IMG/VR virus record: IMGVR_UViG_3300044998_001256
Span: 1-39,283 of that record
Length of the DNA: 39,283 nucleotides
Source: a virus
Direction: 5' to 3' (one strand)
The stretch's first letter is position 1. Each line of letters begins with the position of its first letter. The notes below the pieces were generated by a model, which saw nothing but the letters and a program-made list of their open reading frames with translations, was not told the origin of the DNA and searched no databases. The position numbers were made by a program, and so were the translations under genes. Positions 278 through 39,283 of this stretch are shown piece after piece.

Positions 278-487
278 ATGAACAACACGCTGCGCGATCT
301 CTGGACCACGATTGTCGTTCTTTTGCTGACCGCTGCGCTTGCGGCCGGCGGTGTCTATGCGGGCTATTTGCACTTCAAACTCGAAGCGGCTAAAGATAAC
401 GCCTGCCCGTGCGGAAAAAATTGTCCTTGCAAGCCGGTAGGGCCGCCCCACCGCCGCCCGACCGGCGATCTGCCTACAAGTCCTTGA
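278..487 (+). CDS. Small single-span membrane protein with CPCGKNCPC motif
   Basis: 69 residues. The N-terminus is short (MNNTLRDLW), followed by one strongly hydrophobic span at about residues 10-30 (TTIVVLLLTAALAAGGVYAG), then a short soluble tail with a clustered CPCGKNCPC motif that could bind metal or form disulfides, and a proline-rich end. I do not recognise a family. It opens a run of five small membrane genes around a large membrane-anchored papain-like protein, all on the same strand and closely spaced. A holin-like or accessory lysis role is possible from context only. No strong ribosome-binding site is visible before the ATG. Confidence 0.65.
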   Translation: MNNTLRDLWTTIVVLLLTAALAAGGVYAGYLHFKLEAAKDNACPCGKNCPCKPVGPPHRRPTGDLPTSP

Positions 488-498
488 CGGAGACCCTG

Positions 499-702
499 AT
501 GAAGGCATTCTTGGCAGCGCTGCTCGCACGCGGCGCTAGTGTGAGCATCCGCACGTTCGTCTTCGTGGCAATCATGTTGATCGGAGCTCTTGTGTCGTGG
601 GCGAGCCCGTTTGCATTTTTTGTTGTCGCCAATCTCGTGCTCGGATGTGCCTGGTTTGACCTGGCCCGCATTGGGCCTTCAGCACCGACCAATTCCAGCT
701 GA
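499..702 (+). CDS. Small membrane protein with two hydrophobic segments
   Basis: 67 residues, starting at the ATG at 499. The frame is open further upstream, but GGAGA at 490-494 sits five bases before this ATG, which decides the start. Two adjacent hydrophobic stretches (TFVFVAIMLIGALVSW and FAFFVVANLVLGCAWF, about residues 18-55) suggest a hairpin that spans the membrane twice. Size and topology fit a class II holin, but no family can be named from sequence alone. It lies between two other one-span membrane genes and upstream of the papain-like gene. Confidence 0.65.
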   Translation: MKAFLAALLARGASVSIRTFVFVAIMLIGALVSWASPFAFFVVANLVLGCAWFDLARIGPSAPTNSS

Positions 703-712
703 GACTTGATGG

Positions 713-835
713 ATGCGTGCCCCGCGTTTTCTCGGCTGCCTGGCCTCAGCGTTACTATTGCTGCTGATCGTTCACTTGGCGGGCCCTTTCTTGGTGATTG
801 TCCTTGGGATGATCGCCATGGCGATCCTTGGGTGA
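713..835 (+). CDS. Tiny hydrophobic membrane peptide (40 aa)
   Basis: A 40-residue open frame from the ATG at 713 to the stop at 833-835. After MRAPRFLG it is almost wholly hydrophobic (ALLLLLIVHLAG, then FLVIVLGMIAMAILG), enough for one long or two short membrane spans. The positive charge lies before the span, as in a cytoplasmic N-terminus. Its stop overlaps the start region of the next gene (GTG at 840), so the two are probably translationally coupled. It is short enough to be missed by size-filtered gene callers. Role unknown; it belongs to the membrane cassette. Confidence 0.55.
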   Translation: MRAPRFLGCLASALLLLLIVHLAGPFLVIVLGMIAMAILG

Positions 836-839
836 TGGC

Positions 840-2549
840 GTGAGACGCTTCCCTTTATTCTTGGTGTTGGCAATATTGGTGTTGGCGCTGGCCGCACTAA
901 ATTTCAAAAGCGTGGTTGATTCTTTTATTCGGTGGCCGGCGTTCGAGCCGCAACCGATTCCGATTCCAATTCCTTACCCCAACCCCTCCCGTCCCGGACC
1001 GTGGCGACCCGACCCGTCACCGTGCCCTGGGCCAGGACTTTGCCCAAGTCCTCGGCGACCCCGCCAGGCGTGGGGCCCACGGTCCGGCCTTCTTATTGGC
1101 GATCCTTTTTTGGCTCTCGGCCGCGAGGCGAAAGCGCAATTCGTCGTTAGTGGACCGGAGTATGAAGGTATTGAAGTAGCGTGTGATCTGCCCGCCGACC
1201 GCCACTTGCAAAACGCGCCCGGCTCCGATGGGGCCGGGCTCTGCGTTTTCACCACGATCGACATGGTGGCCGACTGGTGCGGCGAACGCGTGCTGCTGGG
1301 GTTTCGCGATTGGATGCGCACCAAACCAGGTGGTGGATTTCCGGACAAAGTGACCGCGATGATCACGGCAATCGCCGCCGAGCGGCGCATGCCCGAGCCG
1401 GAATACATTCAGGTCACCAATGGCGATGCCAAAGTACTCGAGGCCGCCGTGAAAAGCAGACGCATGATCGGCATCACTTATTCAGGCCGCGACGGCGTGT
1501 TTTATCGACAACGCGTAGCGCATATGGTGGCGTGCGTTTATTTCGATTCGACCACCAACTTTGCGGCAATCCTCGACAGCAATTATCCTGGGAAGCTGTT
1601 GTGGATGCGGTGCCCCGATCTTTTGGAGCGCTGGCGCGAATTGGGCGGTGGTTGGATGTTCGCGCTGCGGGCCCCGGGTCCGCCGCCGATACCCACCAAT
1701 AGTCCGAGCTTTGGAGCGCCGCCCATGTATTGTCCCAACTGCCCCCCACCCCCGCCGGCCATCGTTGCGCCAGCGCCCACACCGCCGGCGACCGCTGCAG
1801 GCAGCATCGGCGATCGTTACGAATGGGTCCGATTCGCCGATGGTGATCGCGACTTAATCGCGCTGCGCAAGAACGGCCAACAAGTTGGCGCTTATCGCAT
1901 CAGCACCGACAAGTACTTCACGCTGAGCACCACTGGGTTCATTGACGATCAATTGCCGCCGGTGCAGATCCCGGCCGAGTATTGGCCCCGACAACCGGTG
2001 CGGCACGACAAGCTCTTCGGCGTGGTTGATTCGCGGTTGAAAGGCCCGGCTTACCAGATTGGCGGCCGAGCCGCATCCCAAGGTGAGGTGCTCGGCAACC
2101 TGCAAGCCGGATTGCCAGACACCCGTGAACAATTATGGTTGGTCATCCATGGCGGCACGGACGCCCAGCGTGCCGCCGTGGTCAACGACATGGCCAAGCA
2201 CCCCGCCCTCGCCTCGGTTCGTAATCGCGTGGTGGTCAAGAATTACGCCGCCGGCGAATGGCCGCTCAATGTCGGCTTTGTTGGTGACGGTACGCCGACG
2301 ATTCAACTACTGGGCTATGAATCCGCCGGCGGCAAAGCGCCGGATTATGGCCGGCTCACCAGTTACCCGGGCGCCGAAGCGCTCGCAGAGTTTTTGGTCG
2401 AAGGCATACGCAAGGCCGATCCGAATTACAAGCCGGAGTTGGCCCGCCGCGCGACCCCTTGGGATTTCGACGTCGAGAAGGCAGCGCCGGTTCTGGCGCT
2501 TTTGCTCGTCGTGTTACTCTTAATTGTCGTTGCCCCGCGGCGACGTTGA
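840..2549 (+). CDS. Membrane-anchored papain-like (C39-like) protein with thioredoxin-like domain
   Basis: 569 residues from the GTG at 840 (a TTG at 828 would add four residues). Order of parts: an N-terminal membrane span at about 6-20; a proline-rich spacer at about 36-75 with PIPIPIPYPNP-like repeats; a papain-fold domain at about 100-280; a second Pro-rich spacer with a YCPNCPP motif; a thioredoxin-like domain at about 425-525; and a C-terminal span ending in RRR. The papain-like domain shows Cys135 in GLCVFTTIDMVADW, His228 in VAHMVACVYF, and Asp246/Asn248 in LDSNYPGK, the spacing expected of a C39-type catalytic triad. The thioredoxin-like domain lacks CxxC. Function is inferred: either a peptidase acting at the envelope in lysis or entry, or a pseudo-enzyme scaffold. 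The surrounding small membrane genes suggest one complex. Confidence 0.8.
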   Translation: MRRFPLFLVLAILVLALAALNFKSVVDSFIRWPAFEPQPIPIPIPYPNPSRPGPWRPDPSPCPGPGLCPSPRRPRQAWGPRSGLLIGDPFLALGREAKAQFVVSGPEYEGIEVACDLPADRHLQNAPGSDGAGLCVFTTIDMVADWCGERVLLGFRDWMRTKPGGGFPDKVTAMITAIAAERRMPEPEYIQVTNGDAKVLEAAVKSRRMIGITYSGRDGVFYRQRVAHMVACVYFDSTTNFAAILDSNYPGKLLWMRCPDLLERWRELGGGWMFALRAPGPPPIPTNSPSFGAPPMYCPNCPPPPPAIVAPAPTPPATAAGSIGDRYEWVRFADGDRDLIALRKNGQQVGAYRISTDKYFTLSTTGFIDDQLPPVQIPAEYWPRQPVRHDKLFGVVDSRLKGPAYQIGGRAASQGEVLGNLQAGLPDTREQLWLVIHGGTDAQRAAVVNDMAKHPALASVRNRVVVKNYAAGEWPLNVGFVGDGTPTIQLLGYESAGGKAPDYGRLTSYPGAEALAEFLVEGIRKADPNYKPELARRATPWDFDVEKAAPVLALLLVVLLLIVVAPRRR

Positions 2550-2556
2550 GGTCATC

Positions 2557-2787
2557 ATGTTGATGTGGTTATTGGTTTTCGCGGCGGTCCTGTTCGTGTG
2601 CGGGTGGAAGTACTGGCCGGACATTTGCCGGTCAATCGTCAACACCGGCCTCGAAGCCGACAAGCCGAAGGAACCCACCGCCGTCGAGCGACTGCACGAA
2701 GTCGTGCACGGGCCACCGCCGATCCGAGCCGATCCGGCGGCCGCGGCATTGTCCAACTTGCTCAATAAGCCCACGAGCGCCAAGTAA
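2557..2787 (+). CDS. Small N-terminally anchored membrane protein
   Basis: 76 residues from the ATG at 2557. GAGG at 2548-2551 lies five bases upstream and overlaps the stop of the papain-like gene, which favours this start over an upstream TTG in frame. A single span at about 2-17 (LMWLLVFAAVLFVCGW) is followed by a soluble acidic and proline-containing tail (AVERLHEVVHGPPPIRADP). The topology is like an i-spanin or a small adaptor, but no lipoprotein partner is evident. It is the last member of the membrane cassette, and its stop overlaps the next ATG by one base. Confidence 0.65.
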   Translation: MLMWLLVFAAVLFVCGWKYWPDICRSIVNTGLEADKPKEPTAVERLHEVVHGPPPIRADPAAAALSNLLNKPTSAK

Positions 2788-3032
2788 TGTTTCCCGCGAC
2801 CTTCAAACCCGAGACGATCGCCAAAGCCCGTCAACTGGCGGAGCTCAAACAAACCATCGCCGTCAAGCAAACGAGCGGCGACGAGATCCTGCAAGGGATC
2901 GTCGAACAACTCCAGAAGTTTCGCGACTTGCCCAACGAGGTCGCGGAGCTCTCACGTCAGGCCGAGGCGCTCGAAAAGAGCTTGGTGGAAGACCTCGCAA
3001 CGGAGTTGGTTTCCGCCGTCGGCGTTGCCTAA
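2787..3032 (+). CDS. Small helical coiled-coil protein, function unknown
   Basis: 81 residues, starting one base inside the previous stop (TAATG). The sequence is strongly helical and amphipathic, with heptad-like leucine spacing through LAELKQTI, LQGIVEQLQKF and VAELSRQAEALEKSL. No catalytic motif is visible. The tight overlap places it in the same operon as the membrane cassette and the following small genes. Nothing in the sequence identifies it further. Confidence 0.6.
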   Translation: MFPATFKPETIAKARQLAELKQTIAVKQTSGDEILQGIVEQLQKFRDLPNEVAELSRQAEALEKSLVEDLATELVSAVGVA

Positions 3033-4127: not shown

Positions 4128-4361
4128 TCATTTCGGCAAGAGTGACGGACCGTTTTTTGCATGGCCCGGTCGTTCGATCACCAGGTTGCCGGCCGGCACG
4201 AGATAGAGCCGGCCGTCGATTTCGACACAGTGATTTCGTGGCCGACCGCTACCCGGCACCACCACCGAGCCGATCTTGCCGTGCAACGGCATGTATGGCG
4301 CCACTTGCGGTCGATAATGAACGCGCACCTTTTGGCCACGGCTCGGATTGAGCAGCATCAC
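4128..4361 (-). CDS. Small basic SH3/KOW-like protein, last gene of early operon
   Basis: 77 residues. The core is beta-rich with glycine turns (GQKVRVHYRP, MPLHGKIGSVV, RPRNHCVEIDGRLYLVPAGNLV), which resembles the small SH3-like or KOW-type modules that bind nucleic acid or ribosomal proteins. The ATG overlaps the stop of the upstream ATPase gene by four bases (ATGA), so the two are translationally coupled. It is the final gene before the shared hairpin terminator. The fold is inferred from pattern and the role is unknown. Confidence 0.65.
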   Translation of the reverse strand: MMLLNPSRGQKVRVHYRPQVAPYMPLHGKIGSVVVPGSGRPRNHCVEIDGRLYLVPAGNLVIERPGHAKNGPSLLPK

Positions 4362-6112
4362 AAGCCTGGCGGAAACAACAACTCAGTTGGCCGCACGACG
4401 CCGGCACGGCGTTCAATCAATCCAATCGTCGATAATGGGCCGATGCTGTTACTGAAATAACCGCCGGTCGTGTCAATCGCCGCGGCGTCGCCGATCTCGG
4501 CATTGGTGACATCGCGACCGCCGGCGTCGATTACCACGTCAAGAATCGCGATCGTTTTTCCGTTGCTGGATCGATGGCGGCGGACACGTTCGCGCATCAT
4601 GTCGTGATACTCGGCCAATGACGTTGTGTGTTGCGGCACGGTGGCCACTTGACGGCCGGCATCCGTGAGCCTGGTCGTGCCCATGCCGCGTTCGATCAAG
4701 CCCGTCGATGACAACGGACCAGCGACGTTGCTGAAATACCCGCCGCTCGTGTCGATCAACGCAATGGCCCCGAGCTGGGCGTTGGTGGGCTCATTCACGC
4801 CAATGCTCTCCCACCAAGCCAACGCGTCGAGGATCTGTTGCTGCTTGCGGTTGAGGCCCTCAGCCGGCGCCGCGGTTTGTGGCCGCGGCCGAGGATGACC
4901 GCTCGATCCGCCGATCGGCGGCCGTCGCGAAGGTTGTACCGGTCGACTGGTCGGCGCAGGACCTGCGCGGCCAATAGGCCCGGCCGCGCTCGGCGTGGTG
5001 GCCGTAATCACAGAATCACGTAACTTCGTGATTTGTTCCACCATGATCTTGGTCACCGCCTCGGCTCGATCGATGATCTTCTCAGTACGATCGAGTTGAC
5101 CATTCTTGAGAACAGGAACCTCGCGAATCGTTTCCTTGACCTCGACCTTCGTTTCAGCGGGGCGGGCTTTAAGGTCATTTTCCAACGTCGTGATTCGCCG
5201 CCGCAACTCTTTTGGATCATCGGCCTTGGCCTTCTCGACGGTCGCCTTAATCTGATCGCCGAGTGCGTCGAGATCAATCTTGGCCATCGACTTTGGTTTG
5301 CGGACCGCCTCGCCGGGCTTCGGTGTTGCGCCGCTGTCGAAAGTCTCACGCCGGCGAACGGCGACCTTTTGCAAATTGCCGAGCCAACCCGGCGACCAGA
5401 ACCAGGCAGTGCCGATCGGCAATGCCGGCAGATCCTCAATCATCGACTTGGCGGTGGCTGGATCGGCGTGAACGTTCACCCATTCCTTGATAGCTTCTAT
5501 GTCTTTGGGGTGAACCATTCGTAATGCGACAAGGATCTCGCATTGGGTGAGCACATTCTTATTCAGCACGGCCGGCCGCTGCGTGATCAAAGTGCATCCG
5601 ATGCCCCGCTTGCGGCCGCGGCGAACGATATCTTCCATGGCGCCGAGCATCCGGTTCTCATCGCCGCCATAGTTGCGAGCTTGCGGAGCGACAGCGTCGG
5701 CTTCGTCGACAAACAAGTGCAGCGGTTCCCGATTCAGTCGATAAAGAGTTTCGGCGAAGGCCACCATGAAGCGAATCATCTGGCCCTTGCGAAACAAGCT
5801 GAGATCGATCACCGCGGAGAAACGATTCTCGACAATCGACCGGGCGACGACTTCGCCGGCGGACTCTTCCAATGGCACGTCGGCGTGTTCACCGCCAAAG
5901 ATGACGATCGGAAAACCGGACCGCAATCCCCACCAGGCGCCGGTCGGATCCAACGCGACGATCGCCTGGCTGGCCTTGAGCATTTCCTCGGCCAGCACCG
6001 AGGCAGTGTAACTTTTCCCGACACCGCGTTTAGCGAGGATGGCAAACGTTTGCGTGACCGCATCCGCGGGCAGTGATACGCCGGCCCCAATAAAGAGTTG
6101 TGGCGCAGCCAT
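4358..6112 (-). CDS. HerA-type P-loop ATPase with two C-terminal winged-helix repeats
   Basis: 584 residues from the ATG at 6112 (a GTG three bases earlier is possible). Walker A is AKRGVGKS at residues 27-34, Walker B is LHLFVDEAD at about 131-139, and a TQRP sensor-like motif is at 177-180. These mark a HerA/VirB4-type ASCE ATPase of the DUF87 kind. A coiled coil follows at about 280-370, then a Pro-rich linker. Two repeated winged-helix units follow (about 420-490 and 515-584), both with IDT(S/T)GGYFSN and GLIER. HerA relatives are hexameric DNA pumps or translocases. Here it probably works with the ParB protein two genes upstream. It overlaps both neighbours by 1-4 bases. Confidence 0.85.
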   Translation of the reverse strand: MAAPQLFIGAGVSLPADAVTQTFAILAKRGVGKSYTASVLAEEMLKASQAIVALDPTGAWWGLRSGFPIVIFGGEHADVPLEESAGEVVARSIVENRFSAVIDLSLFRKGQMIRFMVAFAETLYRLNREPLHLFVDEADAVAPQARNYGGDENRMLGAMEDIVRRGRKRGIGCTLITQRPAVLNKNVLTQCEILVALRMVHPKDIEAIKEWVNVHADPATAKSMIEDLPALPIGTAWFWSPGWLGNLQKVAVRRRETFDSGATPKPGEAVRKPKSMAKIDLDALGDQIKATVEKAKADDPKELRRRITTLENDLKARPAETKVEVKETIREVPVLKNGQLDRTEKIIDRAEAVTKIMVEQITKLRDSVITATTPSAAGPIGRAGPAPTSRPVQPSRRPPIGGSSGHPRPRPQTAAPAEGLNRKQQQILDALAWWESIGVNEPTNAQLGAIALIDTSGGYFSNVAGPLSSTGLIERGMGTTRLTDAGRQVATVPQHTTSLAEYHDMMRERVRRHRSSNGKTIAILDVVIDAGGRDVTNAEIGDAAAIDTTGGYFSNSIGPLSTIGLIERRAGVVRPTELLFPPGL

Positions 6113-6426
6113 CACACCATGCCTTCGCGACAGCGGAGCAAAAAGTCATCCAGCCCCAAACAAGTCTTCCCACCCAAATCCTCGATCTTGCGAGCGCGGC
6201 CGTCGCGGCCGAGGACCACCAGGTCCGCGCCGCGGCCGAGTAAAAACCCGGCATACAGCCAAGCCAACTTGCCGGCCGCCGGCACCAACACGCCGGCGTT
6301 CGCGCGGCAAGTGAATTCGTCGGTTACTGCTAAACCCGCCTCGCGCAGAATCACGCGGAGGCGCTGGTCTTCTTGCACGTCGGGACCGCTGGGCGCCAAC
6401 ACTGTCCACAATCGATCAGTTGACAT
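6112..6426 (-). CDS. Small hypothetical protein between ParB and HerA genes
   Basis: 104 residues from the ATG at 6426. A GAGG nine bases upstream supports this start over the in-frame TTG at 6444. The sequence alternates hydrophobic strands and helices (LRVILREAGLAVTDEFTC, LAWLYAGFLLGRGADLVVLGRDG, CLGLDDFLLRC). No family is recognised. Its stop overlaps the HerA start, and it sits directly after the ParB stop, so a partnership with these two DNA-handling proteins is likely but unproven. Confidence 0.6.
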   Translation of the reverse strand: MSTDRLWTVLAPSGPDVQEDQRLRVILREAGLAVTDEFTCRANAGVLVPAAGKLAWLYAGFLLGRGADLVVLGRDGRARKIEDLGGKTCLGLDDFLLRCREGMV

Positions 6427-6444: not shown

Positions 6445-8145
6445 TCAATGGGCCGCTGGTTTCTTTTTACGAAGCAACCCCACCGCTTCGTCGACGAGCT
6501 CATCCCACGTGCGATCAATGCAATCGGCCCAATCGTCGTGGCGAAGGCCGTCGTCGCCGACGATATTGCCGCGGTCGATCAGGTAGCATTCAAAAAAGAA
6601 TCCAAGCATTTGCGCGGGCTGGGCATGATCGAGCCATTTGACCAAGCCGTCGATTACGGCCGACTCGTCAAAACCTGGTCCCGGCGGCGGCACGTCGATG
6701 CGTTGCCGAGCCACCGCGAACAAGCAGTCTTTTTCGAAGGAAATCCCGTCAAGGCCTTGGTCGCACAAAGCGCGGATCGACTTCGCAAAGAACTTGTTGC
6801 TATCCCACTTCTTGGCGTCGAGGTGTTGATAGTTCGTGTTGGCGGCGACGCGGTCGCCAACGGCTCGGGCCAACTCAAAAAAGGCCCGGCGCTCGGCCGC
6901 CGGGCCCGGACCTCTCGAGGCGGACGACGATGCGGCGGGTTTCGGCTCGTCCTTCAAGTGGCCCAATTCCTTCAAATACTTGTCAGCAGTCGATCGCCGC
7001 ACGACCCAATGCGGCATCGCGTGCTCATCGTGCACGAGGAGGACTTCCTTCTTATCGAGCACGACCTTAAACAAATCGCGATAAAGTTTGCCGTTGGCCT
7101 TGCCCAAATAACAAGCGTCCGCCAGGTCGACGAATTCCGGCGACACACCTCCCCAGGTTTGAAATACCCGTGATCGCTCCCCGTGCGGGACGATCTGCAT
7201 TCCCTGCTTGCGTGCGTCGGCCTCGGTGCGGGCGCGTTGTGCCTCGAGCTTGTCCCGGAAACACATCGGATCCGTGCACACATTGCCGGGCACGCCCTGC
7301 CGCGGTTCGGGGTCGTTGCCCGTGAGCTTTGGGCACGCCTTGCAGGACCCCGCCTTGGGCAACAGCGTCATCGAATCGACATCGAACGGCACAACCTTCA
7401 AGCTGATCATGAAGTGCTGCTCGACGAGTTCCTTGGTTTCGCGATAGCTGAGCGGTTCGCTGCCTTTGTCGGAACGCCCGCCCTTGAGCCATTTCGGATT
7501 TTGCACGTTGGCGAGCACGCACTGCGCGGCCAGTTCCCGCAGCTCGGGGTTGGGTATCCGCGCCACCAATTCGCAGGTTGCCTTGGGGACGCGTCCATTT
7601 TCCAGCGCCGCGGCGAGAACTTTCGGCAGCCGCAGCAAACGCAAATACGTTCGCACCGTGGACACTGACTTATCGATCTTCTTGGCAACTTCCTCAATCG
7701 GCACGCCCCGATCAATCATGTCCTGATAGCCGCCGGCCCGCTCCAGCGGGAGCACATCTTCGCGTTGGTCGTTTTCGACCACTTGAATGGTGATTACTTC
7801 CAAATCGGTCAATTGTTGGATCTTGGCTTCGATCTGTTTCAGACCGGCTTTTTTTGCTGCCCGGTACCGGCGTTCGCCGACCACCAATTCATAAGCGATC
7901 GCCCCCTTCGGTTTGGGGTGCGGCCTTACGACCACTGCTTGCAACTGGCCGAGCTTCTTCATTGAGTCGGCGAGTTGAGCGAGTTTGTCGGGATCAAAGT
8001 GCTTACGGTGATTGAACGGGCTGGGGGCAATAGCGTCGATTGGGATCAACTTGGATCTCAGATCGGCCCGTTCGTGCGCGGGGGAAGGCGGCATTCCGTG
8101 CCCATTGCGGGAGGGCGAAACTCGAGACGTCATTTTGGCAGACAT
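6445..8145 (-). CDS. ParB/RepB/Spo0J-family protein
   Basis: 566 residues. The N-terminal ParB CTPase/nuclease-like domain starts near residue 32. It has GERRYRAAKKAG at 90-101 (CTP-binding box) and ENDQRED at 124-130 (second box). A helix-turn-helix follows at about 147-175 (EEVAKKIDKSVSTVRTYLRLL). The middle part has four cysteines (268, 271, 290, 295) that could bind zinc. The long C-terminal half, after an Ala/Ser linker, is not recognised. ParB proteins load on a centromere-like site. No ParA is seen, so the HerA ATPase downstream may be the motor. A GAAAGGA site lies eight bases before the ATG, and a 20-bp palindrome lies just upstream. At 566 aa it is about twice the usual ParB length. 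Confidence 0.85.
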   Translation of the reverse strand: MSAKMTSRVSPSRNGHGMPPSPAHERADLRSKLIPIDAIAPSPFNHRKHFDPDKLAQLADSMKKLGQLQAVVVRPHPKPKGAIAYELVVGERRYRAAKKAGLKQIEAKIQQLTDLEVITIQVVENDQREDVLPLERAGGYQDMIDRGVPIEEVAKKIDKSVSTVRTYLRLLRLPKVLAAALENGRVPKATCELVARIPNPELRELAAQCVLANVQNPKWLKGGRSDKGSEPLSYRETKELVEQHFMISLKVVPFDVDSMTLLPKAGSCKACPKLTGNDPEPRQGVPGNVCTDPMCFRDKLEAQRARTEADARKQGMQIVPHGERSRVFQTWGGVSPEFVDLADACYLGKANGKLYRDLFKVVLDKKEVLLVHDEHAMPHWVVRRSTADKYLKELGHLKDEPKPAASSSASRGPGPAAERRAFFELARAVGDRVAANTNYQHLDAKKWDSNKFFAKSIRALCDQGLDGISFEKDCLFAVARQRIDVPPPGPGFDESAVIDGLVKWLDHAQPAQMLGFFFECYLIDRGNIVGDDGLRHDDWADCIDRTWDELVDEAVGLLRKKKPAAH

Positions 8146-15229: not shown

Positions 15230-15379
15230 TTGAATACCCCTTGGTACGCAGAGGTAACTCCGGCTGGCAGCGCGGTTTGGAATGGGCCTCTGTTTGAGTC
15301 AAGAAGGTTTGGTCCGCGATTCGTTATCAGACGTCGAAAGGCGACCAACCCATGTTTTTAAGGAAACCTGCGCACGGTC
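15230..15379. promoter_or_regulatory. Upstream region of cargo module
   Basis: About 150 bases before the 300-aa gene hold no supported open frame. On the minus strand a TTGACT occurs upstream of the start, but no convincing -10 box lies at the right distance. This is the likely promoter region of the cargo genes. It lies between the start codon and the second terminator, so the cargo is insulated from tRNA-like transcription. Confidence 0.3.
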
Positions 15380-15421
15380 AAAAAACGGGAGGCGGAGCAG
15401 GTATCACGCTGCTTCCGCCCC
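15380..15421 (-). terminator. Intrinsic terminator 2, minus strand
   Basis: On the minus strand GGGGCGGAAGCAG pairs with CTGCTCCGCCTCCC around an 8-base loop, with an A/T interruption, and is followed by six T residues (AAAAAA at 15380-15385 on the plus strand). This is a typical Rho-independent terminator. It is a diverged copy of the terminator at 15464-15505, 84 bases away. Confidence 0.75.
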
Positions 15422-15450
15422 GTTTGACCGGCCAGCAAGGCCTCCGGCCA
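15415..15450. repeat. 36-bp direct repeat, copy 1
   Basis: Identical to 15499-15534. Each copy holds the outer arm of a terminator stem (CCGCCCC) and a small GGCC-rich hairpin (GGCC-agcaa-GGCC). The period of 84 bases covers a whole terminator unit, so the tandem terminators arose by duplication. Confidence 0.9.
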
Positions 15451-15463
15451 ATTCCATTGATTG

Positions 15464-15505
15464 AAAAAACTAAGGGCGGCACGGATCTCACACCGCAACC
15501 GCCCC
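15464..15505 (-). terminator. Intrinsic terminator 1, minus strand
   Basis: On the minus strand GGGCGG pairs with CCGCCC, continued by CGG/CCG, and ends in a T-rich run (TTAGTTTTTT; AAAAAA at 15464-15469 on the plus strand). It follows the two tRNA-like sequences and would stop their transcripts before the cargo genes. Confidence 0.7.
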
Positions 15506-15534
15506 GTTTGACCGGCCAGCAAGGCCTCCGGCCA
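15499..15534. repeat. 36-bp direct repeat, copy 2
   Basis: Second exact copy of the 15415-15450 sequence. It lies directly beside the acceptor end of the tRNA-like element at 15537, whose transcript would enter the terminators here. Confidence 0.9.
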
Positions 15535-15536
15535 GT

Positions 15537-15613
15537 GAACCTGAGGGGAATCGAACCCCTGATCTCTTGATGGACTACCAAGAGGCACCTGCGGTTCTAA
15601 CCCATTGGACCGA
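15537..15613 (-). tRNA. tRNA-like element A next to integrase
   Basis: On the minus strand there is a perfect T arm (AGGGG-TTCGATT-CCCCT, 15544-15560). A 5-base variable loop follows, and then a 17-base anticodon arm (CTTGG/TCAAG with loop TAGTCCA, which would read GTC, but with A instead of T at position 33). A D-arm-like GGT...ACC with AATGGGTTAGA lies upstream. About nine extra bases separate the D and anticodon arms, and no 5' strand pairs with the acceptor end CAGGTTC. It is either a degenerate tRNA, an unusual one, or an attachment-site remnant. Confidence 0.45.
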
Positions 15614-15646
15614 CGCCGGTCAACCGGCGATCGGGGACGGGTCAAT

Positions 15647-15694
15647 GGACCTGAGGGGATTTGAACCCCTGACCTCTTGAATGCCATTCAACCG
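15647..15694 (-). other. tRNA 3'-half element B, candidate attP core
   Basis: On the minus strand the 3' half of a tRNA is well formed. The anticodon arm has loop ATGGCAT (GGC). A 5-base variable loop, a perfect T arm (AGGGG-TTCAAAT-CCCCT, 15654-15670) and an acceptor end CAGGTCC-A follow. No matching 5' acceptor strand exists upstream. A 3' tRNA half next to an integrase is the classic form of a phage attachment site, because integration restores the host tRNA. Its T arm is nearly the same as that of element A. Confidence 0.5.
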
Positions 15695-35741: not shown

Positions 35742-36575
35742 ATGGCGTTGCTGTCATCGCTATCTCTGTCCGGCGGCATCGGCCCACGGTTCGTGGCAGC
35801 GGGGTTGTGGGGCGTTGCCGTCGCCATCAGCGACTTGGGTTTGGCGGCGACGCCAGAGCGTGCCGCGGCTGTCGGTCTCTTGGAACCGGGACCGGCGCAA
35901 ACTGACGCGGGCGATTGTGAAAAATCGTGTGTTCCCGGCGGGCTCCAGGTCGGTGCCGATGGCTCGGCGACGCTCACGTTGGCGACCTGTTGCGGTTGCG
36001 CGGGAAGCGGTGGCAGCGGTAGTGGTTACGATGTCGATCCGGCTGAACTGGAGTGCCTCGACGACAACTTCTTCGATTGCGGCGGATCTCCGTGCGCCCC
36101 ATCGCATGTCGTGTCCCGCTATTGGTGTTTGGAAATCGATGGTACGCCACCAATCGACAGCGCGTGTCAACGGTTGTTTGGCTACTCTTTTCAACTCGAT
36201 CTGGATGGCGCTGAATGCGGTTGGGGCTGGAATTCAGCGGACGAGGCCACGGCACATGGGCAAGACATTTTTGAATGGTGCACCAATGGCCCGACGCTTG
36301 GCACCCGGTCGGCCGAGGCTGTCATGCGACCGATTGGCGCTGGCGGTACGGTTGGCGGCACTTCGATCACGGCGCCGAGTTGCGGCTTCTATGTGCGGAT
36401 CACAACTTCATTCAACGGGTCCACGTCGATCGCCGTTTACTTCGTTGACAAAGACGCGTTCCAATGCACCGCACCCAACGTTTTAGATTTGATCGGTGAG
36501 GAAACCGACGTCGGCGTGTCAGAGGATTGGCCGGCGACGATCACGCTGACGCCTTGTCTTGCGGATGACGTCTAA
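35742..36575 (+). CDS. Cysteine-rich tail-region protein
   Basis: 277 residues. The N-terminal 40 residues are Ala/Gly/Leu-rich. The rest holds many cysteines (GDCEKSCVPGG, TCCGCAGSGGSGSG, CLDDNFFDCGGSPC, YWCLEIDG, AECGW, CGFYVRI), probably disulfide-linked, with beta strands between. It sits in the fibre gene cluster and overlaps the glycosyltransferase start by one base. No family is recognised. Extracellular exposure on the virion is likely. Confidence 0.6.
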   Translation: MALLSSLSLSGGIGPRFVAAGLWGVAVAISDLGLAATPERAAAVGLLEPGPAQTDAGDCEKSCVPGGLQVGADGSATLTLATCCGCAGSGGSGSGYDVDPAELECLDDNFFDCGGSPCAPSHVVSRYWCLEIDGTPPIDSACQRLFGYSFQLDLDGAECGWGWNSADEATAHGQDIFEWCTNGPTLGTRSAEAVMRPIGAGGTVGGTSITAPSCGFYVRITTSFNGSTSIAVYFVDKDAFQCTAPNVLDLIGEETDVGVSEDWPATITLTPCLADDV

Positions 36576-38695
36576 TGTTCCCCGACGAGTGCCAATGTCC
36601 CTCTGCTGGTCACTGCCCGCATGCCAATCGCGCCATGTCGGCGACGATGCACGGGCATTGCCAATCCGACAAAGCATATCGATACACGCTTGCCGGTGTT
36701 CCTTTTCAGCAGCGGCCTAATGATGCCCGGCGCAGTGGATTGTCCGCGGCGATCGCCGCCACTTCGGCCCGCGTTGAATTGCCATGCGTGTATCGCAGCG
36801 AGGACGAGATCGAGCACGCACCGTGTGGCTGCCACGTTTATCAATGCGCGATCCATCAAGTCTGCGTGCCCTGGCGTGGCTACAAACTCAAGCCCGGCAT
36901 CCACGTGTGCGACGAGTGCACTGAACGCCGGCTGACACTACCGGCCATGCCCGAAGCCATTGAGCCCGACCATTACTTCGCATTGCGAAAGACGTTGCCG
37001 ACCGATGTGGTGCCAACGCCGGCGGCGATGCAAACGGGATTACGTGCCGTCGCCGAGAGACGCACCGCCATGCCGGCCGACAAACGCGGCCGCGGCATCG
37101 TGTTTGCCGCCGGCGGCTGGCGCTTCTTGTGTGGTGTTTTTGTGTCCACACGAATGATTCGGTGGTTAGGGTGCGAATACCCGATTGAGGTTTGGTACAA
37201 CGGCGACCTCGACGGCGAGTTTACTCCGGATTACTTGCGCGTAATGGATGGGCTCGGCGTGACTTTTCATGATGCCGCCGCGGAGCTTCGCCGCCTGGGC
37301 ATCACGCGCCGATCGGCGCTCAATGGCTGGCCGCTGAAACCGGTGGCTTACTTACTGTCCTCGTTCGCGGAAGTCCTTGGGCTCGATGCGGACTGCTACC
37401 CGGTGTTGGATCCGCGGCCGCTATTTGAGCACCCTAAATATCGCGAGCATGGTGCGGTGTTGTGGCCGGACCTGTCAAAAAACAAACACGGCGCCCCGCT
37501 CGAGGCGGCGCAATGGGAGATCTTCGGCCTCGCCGATCGGCGCACGCCGGGTATCGAATCAGGCCAGGTCCTAATCGATAAAAACAAGCACTGGCATTCG
37601 CTCGCCATCACTAGTTGGCTCAACGACCATCATGATTTCTGTTATCTGCCGACCGGGCCCGCTGGAATGCTGGGCGACAAAGACACCTTTGCGATCGGGT
37701 TCCATGCCGCCGATGAATGGGGCGGTGATAAGTCACACAAGCCCTACGTCAATGCGCCGCCGACCAGGTGGCTGCATGTCGCCTTCATGCAGCATGGGCT
37801 CGACGGTGAAACTATGTTTGTGCACAGATGCCGGGACAAACCGCGGGTTGGCCCCTTCTCTTACGGCACGCCGCAGCGGGACCGCCTTGGCCGAATGATT
37901 CGCTGCGACGCCGAAGGCAAAAAAAATCCGCCGATCGCCCATGAATGGAAGATCCACGAACTCGTGGCGGAATACGCCGCCAAACTCAAACCGTCGCCGG
38001 CGGCCTGCGCCGCGCCGATTGCCGCAGGGACCGGCCCACCGATCCAGGTCTTGGTACCGATGATCTTCAAGCCCGATCTCAATCCATGGTTGTTGCGCCG
38101 CATGCGCGAAAACCTGGCCAAGCTCATTCGTTGCAATCCCCGCTTCGCGATCGACGTGGTTGAATTCGATGAACCATTCACCAACGAACCGGGCGAGCGG
38201 ATCTGGGCTAAGGTTGGCCGCGCACGCAACCACGTGATCGAGCAACAACTGTTGCGGCGCCACGAATATGTGTTGTGGATCGATGCCGACATTGTGCGGT
38301 ACCCGGCCGACATTCTTACTACGTTGCATGCCGCCAACCCCGACGGCATCACCGCGCCGGCAGTGATGATTGAAGATGACAACAAGTTTTACGATTGGGC
38401 CGCCTTCGTTGAACAAGACGACGCCGGCGATCTGGTGACCTTCTCGCCGGAAGCACCCTATTGGAGATTCCCTGATCGGATTCAGAACGGCCGACTCGAG
38501 CTCGCCGGCGTCGGCAGCATGTATTTGATGCCGGCCTGGCCGTACAAACTCGGTGCCCGCCATGCAGATACGCCATGGACCGACCATTGGCCTATTTGTG
38601 AGACGGTGCGCCGGGCTAATTCGAAAGTTGTTTGCTTAACTGAAGTGCGCGTCGATCATGCCGAGTTGCCGCGCTATGGCGAACCATGGCATTGA
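36575..38695 (+). CDS. Two-domain glycosyltransferase, eukaryote-like
   Basis: 706 residues. Residues 1-120 are cysteine-rich (CQCPSAGHC, CGCHVYQC, CDECTERR) and may bind zinc. Residues 170-420 look like a GT71/Mnn1-type mannosyltransferase: GIVFAAGGWRFLCGVFVS, EVWYNGDLDGE, GWPLKPVAYLLSSFAEVLGL and DAD (271-273). Residues 490-706 are a second GT-A domain of Anp1/GT62 flavour: IQVLVPMIFKPDLNPW, ARNHVIEQQLL, then DAD (570-572) in YVLWIDADIVRYPADIL, and a C-terminal TEVRVDHAELPRYGEPWH. Both DxD motifs bind metal and sugar nucleotide. It probably glycosylates virion fibres or host surface glycans. Confidence 0.82.
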   Translation: MFPDECQCPSAGHCPHANRAMSATMHGHCQSDKAYRYTLAGVPFQQRPNDARRSGLSAAIAATSARVELPCVYRSEDEIEHAPCGCHVYQCAIHQVCVPWRGYKLKPGIHVCDECTERRLTLPAMPEAIEPDHYFALRKTLPTDVVPTPAAMQTGLRAVAERRTAMPADKRGRGIVFAAGGWRFLCGVFVSTRMIRWLGCEYPIEVWYNGDLDGEFTPDYLRVMDGLGVTFHDAAAELRRLGITRRSALNGWPLKPVAYLLSSFAEVLGLDADCYPVLDPRPLFEHPKYREHGAVLWPDLSKNKHGAPLEAAQWEIFGLADRRTPGIESGQVLIDKNKHWHSLAITSWLNDHHDFCYLPTGPAGMLGDKDTFAIGFHAADEWGGDKSHKPYVNAPPTRWLHVAFMQHGLDGETMFVHRCRDKPRVGPFSYGTPQRDRLGRMIRCDAEGKKNPPIAHEWKIHELVAEYAAKLKPSPAACAAPIAAGTGPPIQVLVPMIFKPDLNPWLLRRMRENLAKLIRCNPRFAIDVVEFDEPFTNEPGERIWAKVGRARNHVIEQQLLRRHEYVLWIDADIVRYPADILTTLHAANPDGITAPAVMIEDDNKFYDWAAFVEQDDAGDLVTFSPEAPYWRFPDRIQNGRLELAGVGSMYLMPAWPYKLGARHADTPWTDHWPICETVRRANSKVVCLTEVRVDHAELPRYGEPWH

Positions 38696-39024: not shown

Positions 39025-39283
39025 TGCGAACATTCGAAATCAATTTGTGGCGAATGTTGCGGCGGCGGGCAGTCACATTGACCGCGAATTTCGCGGGCAC
39101 GCCGCAAGTCGGCAATGACCCCCTTTTGGTCAGCTTCACGGACTTATCAACCGGGGCGCCAACCTCTTGGTTATGGGAGCGGCGCCTTATAGGCACGGAA
39201 GATTGGTTTACTTTTTCCGAGGTTCAACATCCATTAGAGATCGAGTTTAACTTTGGTTGGTGGGATATTCGGCTAACGGCAAC
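39024..39283 (+). CDS. PKD-domain protein, 5' part (continues at 1-237)
   Basis: The gene starts at the ATG at 39024, overlapping the spike-base stop. Its first residues are MRTFEINLWRMLRRR, then AVTLTANFAGTPQVGNDPLL, which leads into the PKD-like domain described at 1-237. The terminal repeat begins at its codon 29 (39108). In the full circle it is an ordinary 106-residue gene. The window merely cuts it, so it should not be called partial in the genome. Confidence 0.8.
   Translation, partial: MRTFEINLWRMLRRRAVTLTANFAGTPQVGNDPLLVSFTDLSTGAPTSWLWERRLIGTEDWFTFSEVQHPLEIEFNFGWWDIRLTA
39108..39283. repeat. Terminal direct repeat, right copy
   Basis: Same sequence as 1-176, with T at 39235 where the left copy has C at 128. 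In the reading frame that crosses the junction this changes a serine codon (tca) to leucine (tta). The difference is either strain variation in the sampled population or a read error. Its presence shows that the two ends were assembled from different reads. Confidence 0.93.

Follow-up and report, generated by a model that had tools for sequence, protein, structure and literature searches.

Among the described phage lysis proteins, the signal-anchored (signal-arrest-release, SAR) endolysins of Gram-negative phages, such as Lyz of phage P1, possess an N-terminal anchor, through which the wall hydrolase is already in the periplasm when it is triggered. The known SAR endolysins are of the lysozyme or transglycosylase type. 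A protein that also has an N-terminal hydrophobic anchor (residues 4-30), but in which this is combined with a papain fold, with a further anchor at the C terminus and with a thioredoxin fold as obligate partner, is encoded in IMG/VR virus record IMGVR_UViG_3300044998_001256. The whole record of 39,283 nucleotides was analyzed and is called the window here. The protein is termed A-B for its papain-fold domain (A) and its thioredoxin-fold domain (B), and it lies among small membrane open reading frames (ORFs) at positions 278-2787. This region appears, on balance, to be the module with which a temperate siphophage lyses its planctomycete-type hosts. The C-terminal span of A-B argues against a simple SAR endolysin.

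Another precedent is found in the mycobacteriophages. The N5 domains of their Lysin A proteins are predicted cysteine proteases, with an HHpred match to a C39-like peptidase of B. anthracis (PMC3314691). These C39-like domains are phage encoded and belong to lysis enzymes, and thus they provide a precedent for a papain-fold domain A as a wall-cutting enzyme (PMC3314691); lysins of this kind are also the top viral Foldseek matches of A-B. In contrast to them, A shows no detectable sequence similarity to N5, A-B has neither a central amidase or glycosidase nor a recognized wall-binding domain, and A is tethered to a membrane and joined to a thioredoxin fold. Phage lysis cassettes in which the endolysin is a cysteine peptidase are a known kind. 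What is new to the databases searched is the family itself, its thioredoxin-fold partner, the double anchor and the association with planctomycetes. Neither a description of the A-B module nor a lysis system of a planctomycete phage was found in the open-access literature searched. How phages open the unusual envelopes of planctomycetes is largely unexplored, and a module that has no Pfam, NCBIfam or PHROG entry offers a concrete gene set and a marker for planctomycete phages in metagenomes. It may also represent a new family of wall-cutting enzymes, and it is a rare case of a thioredoxin fold tied to a membrane-held cysteine peptidase through repeated gene fusion.

The A-B protein (840-2549, plus strand) was explored through a structure model, a family alignment and a comparison of fused and split relatives. 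Its ORF is open from TTG 828, and the natural start at GTG 840 gives 569 amino acids. The layout is a membrane span, a proline linker, the papain fold, a second proline linker, the thioredoxin fold, another span and RRR. Hydropathy peaks are present at residues 4-22 and 548-566. In the full-length AlphaFold model, which was built from 24 sequences, the N-terminal membrane helix covers residues 4-30 (849-929, plus strand; hydropathy 2.63) and the C-terminal one covers residues 545-564 (2472-2531, plus strand; hydropathy 2.95), with a basic tail and then RRR after it. The proline-rich stretch past the N-terminal helix is disordered, and the second proline-rich spacer lies between two confident domains. 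A preliminary description, made from the sequence, had proposed a 569-residue protein with a span at each end and proline-rich spacers; the GTG start, the hydropathy and the modeled helices bear this out. The positive charges at both termini indicate that the termini are probably cytoplasmic, which would place both the A and B domains in the periplasm. In many relatives, a signal peptide seems to take the place of the N-terminal anchor, and cysteine pairs recur in the membrane-proximal linkers of several loci, a minority of the total. An assembly artefact was ruled out, since the arrangement recurs in many independent contigs.

Domain A (residues 98-292; 1131-1715, plus strand) was also modeled alone, with a predicted local distance difference test score (pLDDT) of 91 and a predicted template modeling score (pTM) of 0.88. 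A papain fold was therefore found, as the preliminary description had predicted. The closest neighbor by Foldseek in the PDB is the Nostoc phytochelatin synthase Alr0975 (MEROPS C83), with an E-value of 1.1e-5 and a template modeling score (TM) of about 0.5. Below it are the C39-like structure 3erv (TM 0.54/0.52, E 3.2e-3, probability 1.00), staphopain, PeiR and cathepsins. The model displays the arrangement of the papain superfamily (clan CA), a cysteine borne on a helix and then a histidine and an aspartate on the sheet; the order Cys, His, Asp is the one expected for this fold. Cys135 opens helix 135-147, His228 is on strand 226-236 and Asp246 follows strand 241-245. These three residues and Asn248 are invariant in two family alignments (A1 and A5, with 24 and 33 sequences). 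The codon of the putative nucleophile, Cys135, is at 1242-1244 (plus strand) within GAGLCVF, and this cysteine is also invariant in a set of distant homologues (A6). The putative catalytic His228 (1521-1523, plus strand) is in the motif AHMV, and the distant homologues have HMV or HAI in its place. The putative third catalytic residue belongs to Asp246-Ser247-Asn248 (1575-1583, plus strand), for which the family motif is DNN; the Asp and the final Asn are retained in all of the distant homologues.

Domain A thus shares a fold with phytochelatin synthase and with Peptidase C39-like proteins, but it differs from both in being membrane anchored, in having its own motif (GxGLCVF / HMV / DNN) and in lacking a profile match or a PDB sequence match. 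None of 24 members matched a C39 profile at E <= 1 in Pfam, or any in NCBIfam, and no sequence match to phytochelatin synthase was found for domain A in Pfam, NCBIfam or the PDB. The C39-like domain of the preliminary description consequently stands as a fold, through 3erv and the invariant Cys, His and Asp, and falls as a family, with phytochelatin synthase being closer. The structural model suggests that domain A is a cysteine peptidase or amidase that would use Cys135, His228 and Asp246. The closest viral predicted structures to the full-length A-B model are phage lysins, namely Lysin A of Mycobacterium phage MOOREtheMARYer, the endolysin of Gordonia phage OneUp and a lysozyme of S-CBP1. 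Their E-values are weak (3e-3 to 3e-2), but their probabilities are 0.99-1.0.

Domain B (residues ~392-531; 2013-2432, plus strand) has a high pLDDT across residues ~430-526, and Foldseek returned many thioredoxins and protein disulfide isomerases. This confirms the thioredoxin-like domain without CxxC that had been noticed earlier. The fold and a G-x-PTI element are common to domain B and the TlpA-like periplasmic thioredoxin folds. Unlike these, domain B of this phage lacks the CxxC that an active thioredoxin or TlpA would have, and it possesses a C-terminal membrane anchor and is always paired with a papain-fold enzyme. No cysteine is conserved among 29 B sequences. Sequence matches of the query protein to 'Thioredoxin h' and DsbA were not significant and were dropped. 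In a distant pair (L199, 4532-6220), the B gene (5156-6220) encodes a thioredoxin-like motif, CQPC, at the position where it would be expected, and the neighboring A has an extra cysteine beside the nucleophile (SCVQC). Together, these suggest that B probably descends from a true thioredoxin. Judged from its sequence, the L199 pair could possibly be an ancestral redox switch.

Scans of viral and genome contigs for exact 8-mer peptides of the whole protein gave no match, and tblastn with the A-B protein gave none in phages or plasmids. By themselves these results would have suggested an orphan, and only a degenerate motif recovered the family. Of 50 viral contigs that contain the DNA pattern for GxGLCVF[ST]xI, 49 encode domain A, and a scan based on an alignment added 12 genome contigs. 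The named taxa among the genome contigs are mostly Planctomycetota (Gemmatales, Gemmataceae and Planctomycetaceae), with one labeled Chloroflexi. In total, the family covers about 60 phage, prophage and planctomycete loci. For 24 members, there was no significant match in Pfam or PHROGs, no consistent one in NCBIfam and none in the PDB by sequence. Scans for relatives based on tail proteins or TerL returned the same clade, nothing, or seemingly unrelated phages that mostly lack the module.

The ORF ends past the papain domain in many relatives, and the next gene corresponds to the C-terminal half of the query protein, with E-values of 6e-56 to 4e-22 for most of the viral records that are split. 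Domain models list 39 rows as fused and 27 as split, a count that includes re-fetched copies of some loci. Both A and B are present at every locus with enough DNA. The family loci without B are cut at a contig end, except for L044, where the next gene has a matching layout and is under the threshold. In a tree of 31 non-redundant A domains, the fused or split state changed six times, and at least five of the changes are forced by well supported branches. This repeated fusion of neighbors strongly supports a joint function of A and B. The obligate core of the module is A and B, fused or adjacent.

The module is found after the tail genes in most records and elsewhere before terminase or beside head genes. 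In the clade of G009, no contig that extends far enough past the tail gene lacks it, and a small membrane gene then follows in all contigs long enough to include it. The order A, B and a small membrane gene (C) is kept, among phage genes, in planctomycete genomes whose A matches are very weak (L115-L117 and regions L162-L164); in L162 and L164, these adjoin terminase. Viral contigs L172 and L173 have the same order plus an extra small Cys-rich protein. In a survey of planctomycete genomes, the module was present in 4 of 392, at least three of them with phage genes alongside. Three loci (L056, L057 and L058) have A-B in Gemmatales/Planctomycetota chromosomes with no phage gene seen nearby, and that of L058 is close to secA- and metK-like genes. 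These appear to be remnants or domesticated copies.

Gene C (2557-2787, plus strand) follows A-B directly. It encodes 76 amino acids with one N-terminal span, and its start was placed at ATG 2557 rather than at TTG 2524. A GAGG ribosome site overlaps the A-B stop, and the stop of C overlaps the next ATG. Of 17 records, 15 have a small ORF with an N-terminal span right after the module. The other genes of these records served as controls, and such an ORF follows 43 of 465 of them (9%; Fisher p 3e-13, with related records not being independent). Gene C may function as a holin. Like phage holins, it is a small membrane protein adjoining a putative wall enzyme, and the C proteins of one clade (G005, G009, G010 and G011) have two spans, whereas that of this phage has one. 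Two of the two-span proteins matched only holin families in PHROGs (297 and 526), far below significance (E 0.14-0.23), and C of this phage had no PHROG holin match. A 'Zot-like toxin' assignment for C (E 0.12-0.2) was dropped. The five-gene unit first envisaged is thus reduced to a core of A and B with C nearly always next to it. Shortly after A-B-C, a trypsin-like serine protease with a signal sequence was recognized by eye, not by profile, in records G017 (L076:13361-14164) and G008 (at ~75.5 kb, L098).

The first and last 176 nucleotides of the record (1-176 and 39108-39283) form a direct repeat with 175 of 176 identical, and the record is a closed circle of about 39,107 bp (~39.1 kb). The single mismatch suggests strain variation or an assembly error. 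On the circular map, the cassette at 278-2787 comes directly after the genes at the far end of the record, and its proposed location after the tail genes is therefore correct. These preceding genes encode tail tube, tail completion, beta-helix and glycosyltransferase proteins (28.5-38.7 kb), and there is also one for a small PKD-like protein. The phage is a temperate siphophage. It encodes an integrase, the head proteins TerS, TerL, portal, prohead protease, HK97-type capsid and head-tail adaptor (by PHROGs), and further structural proteins for head completion, tail completion (gp17), tail tube and tail T. The host is probably of the planctomycete type.

An ordinary endolysin was not found by Pfam among the predicted proteins of the window, nor in three related phages whose structural gene sets are near-full and for which almost every protein was scanned (for the third, 25 of 26 families were shown). 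Lysozyme, amidase, transglycosylase and known wall endopeptidase were all absent; the same scans did identify terminase, portal, capsid, tail and replication families. DNA searches for seven families (Amidase_2, Phage_lysozyme, SLT, M23, Amidase_3, M15_4 and NLPC_P60) found none in the DNA of the window and none across 20 records, and control genomes gave a positive signal. The absence of an ordinary endolysin, as claimed earlier, holds across these searches, and no relative scanned has the gene beside a clear endolysin. A-B is the only candidate wall hydrolase in the phage, and unrecognized hydrolases could remain.

These observations allow a mechanism to be proposed. A and B would be periplasmic and held to the inner membrane by the N-terminal anchor before A and the C-terminal anchor with its basic cytoplasmic tail after B. 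A would cut the thin peptidoglycan and stand in for the missing endolysin. B, an obligate partner derived from thioredoxin and no longer redox-active in most members, would hold A at the membrane and probably keep it inactive or correctly placed until the time of lysis. The trigger could be the collapse or perforation of the membrane by the small membrane proteins, C downstream and a two-span ORF upstream. The folds, the letters of the triad, the two hydrophobic anchors, the linkage of A and B, gene C, the position after the tail genes and the lack of a recognized endolysin are supported by computation. That A and B are periplasmic (from the topology), that A is an active enzyme with peptidoglycan as its substrate, that B controls it, that C acts as a holin and that the host is a planctomycete are inferred. 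The late position together with small holin-like membrane genes is as expected for lysis. Planctomycetes are reported to have peptidoglycan (PMC4432640).

Several points weigh against a lysis module. A-B has no recognized cell-wall-binding domain, and its top PDB fold, phytochelatin synthase, acts on glutathione and is not a wall enzyme. Thioredoxin-fold partners are not known from lysis cassettes. The chromosomal copies of L056-L058 have no phage gene seen nearby. Uncharacterized proteins could hide an unrecognized endolysin, and several related records are fragments. A more specific form of the proposal, in which the region is an undescribed exit system with a double-anchored periplasmic papain-fold peptidase gated by its thioredoxin-fold partner, a redox switch turned into a non-redox regulator, can be put forward only tentatively.

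It was suggested in the preliminary description that the cassette is an unusual exit or envelope-remodelling system. Exit by lysis is the best reading of it, though a conditional one, and the cassette is not unique but widespread among phages associated with planctomycetes. The main rival, a device for envelope remodelling or surface exclusion, is considered unlikely. A-B would then be a tethered cysteine enzyme of the periplasm whose target is an envelope protein of the host, a wall peptide or a receptor, and which would, for example, block superinfection or permit non-lytic release. In its favor, anchors at both ends are unusual for an endolysin, the nearest fold acts on glutathione, and no phage genes were seen close to some chromosomal A-B pairs. 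However, such a device leaves the phages without a recognizable lysis enzyme, and the late position and the small membrane proteins are lysis-like. A planctomycete is reported to release phage chronically (PMC10945688), but the ZRK32 phage, an extrachromosomal element of 21.9 kb, is a different one. A peptidase under redox control is quite improbable. Here B would be, or would have been, a thiol partner that reduces or delivers the active-site cysteine of A, so that the module would be a thiol switch, and a B without CxxC would be a later, non-redox version. A would be a cysteine enzyme in an oxidizing compartment, which fits this idea, as do CQPC and SCVQC in L199 and the cysteine pairs in several membrane-proximal linkers. 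Yet L199 is a single lineage, the linker pairs occur in a minority of loci, B of this phage lacks CxxC and the 29 B sequences share no conserved cysteine.

A function in the virion or in entry, with A-B-C packaged or active in local wall digestion during DNA entry, is very improbable. The module is linked to structural genes, and in L059-L063 and G022 it comes after head genes with no tail genes noticed, but its position varies (after tail genes, before terminase or beside head genes), and anchors or signal sequences with small membrane neighbors are typical of inner-membrane proteins rather than of virion parts. A chromosomal housekeeping pair of host origin, taken up by phages as cargo, is the least probable reading. 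L056, L057 and L058 do carry A-B among apparent host genes. Against this, the position is conserved in phages and the module was seen in only 4 of the 392 sampled planctomycete genomes, at least three of which have phage genes alongside; a housekeeping role is unlikely for a module that so few genomes carry. The lysis module thus stays the preferred reading of 278-2787.

Three small ORFs lie upstream of A-B on the plus strand. The preliminary description had counted four small flanking membrane ORFs. All four are present, but these three are not recognizably conserved, have no database match and have weaker coding evidence; positional counterparts in relatives exist only for the downstream one, gene C. 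The ORF at 278-487 (69 amino acids) has an N-terminal span (hydropathy peak 2.08 at residue 8), a CPCGKNCPC motif and a proline-rich tail, with weak coding evidence and no clear ribosome-binding site. A metallothionein match for it (Metallothio_2, E 0.003, below the cut-off) was dropped as a bias of cysteine composition. CxC-rich small or linker segments that resemble it are found near A/B in L010, L046, L049, L064, L164, L172 and L173. Single-span small proteins near A/B with CxC or CxCxxC and a proline-rich tail are present at 278-487, L164:6485-6955, L172:1011-1451 and L173:6261-7007. These could possibly be a fourth component of the module. The ORF at 499-702 (67 amino acids) has two spans in a holin-like layout, with hydropathy peaks at residues 15 and 38 and GGAG upstream of its ATG; it had no PHROG match. 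The ORF at 713-835 (40 amino acids) has a single span with a hydropathy peak of 2.8 at residue 13, and it ends just ahead of the start of the large gene. Downstream of C, a soluble helical protein of 81 amino acids (2787-3032, plus strand) begins in a TAATG overlap with the stop of C. No relatives of it were found, and its membership in the module is uncertain.

Other features were noticed in the family and in the window. The planctomycete clusters of L059, L060-L063 and G022 (L087-L089) have portal, protease, capsid, connector and A-B among host genes, with no tail genes noticed, and L063 has a GroES-like gene between portal and capsid. These clusters could possibly be capsid-only satellites or elements resembling gene-transfer agents. 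On the opposite strand of the window, Pfam identified a HerA/DUF87 ATPase and a ParB-like protein. The two adjoin each other (4358-6115 and 6445-8145, both minus strand), and the phage encodes an integrase as well; they may be an unusual partition or maintenance pair, with a possible phage-plasmid stage. Beside the integrase, the translation of an ORF at 15358-15687 resembles a read-through tRNA (SGVQIPSGP, GFDSPQVH and repeated WPEALLAGQTGR), and it could be an att site or tRNA remnants uncalled by ARAGORN. Past the tail genes and shortly before the cassette, a large protein (36575-38695) has Mannosyl_trans3 and Anp1 glycosyltransferase matches.

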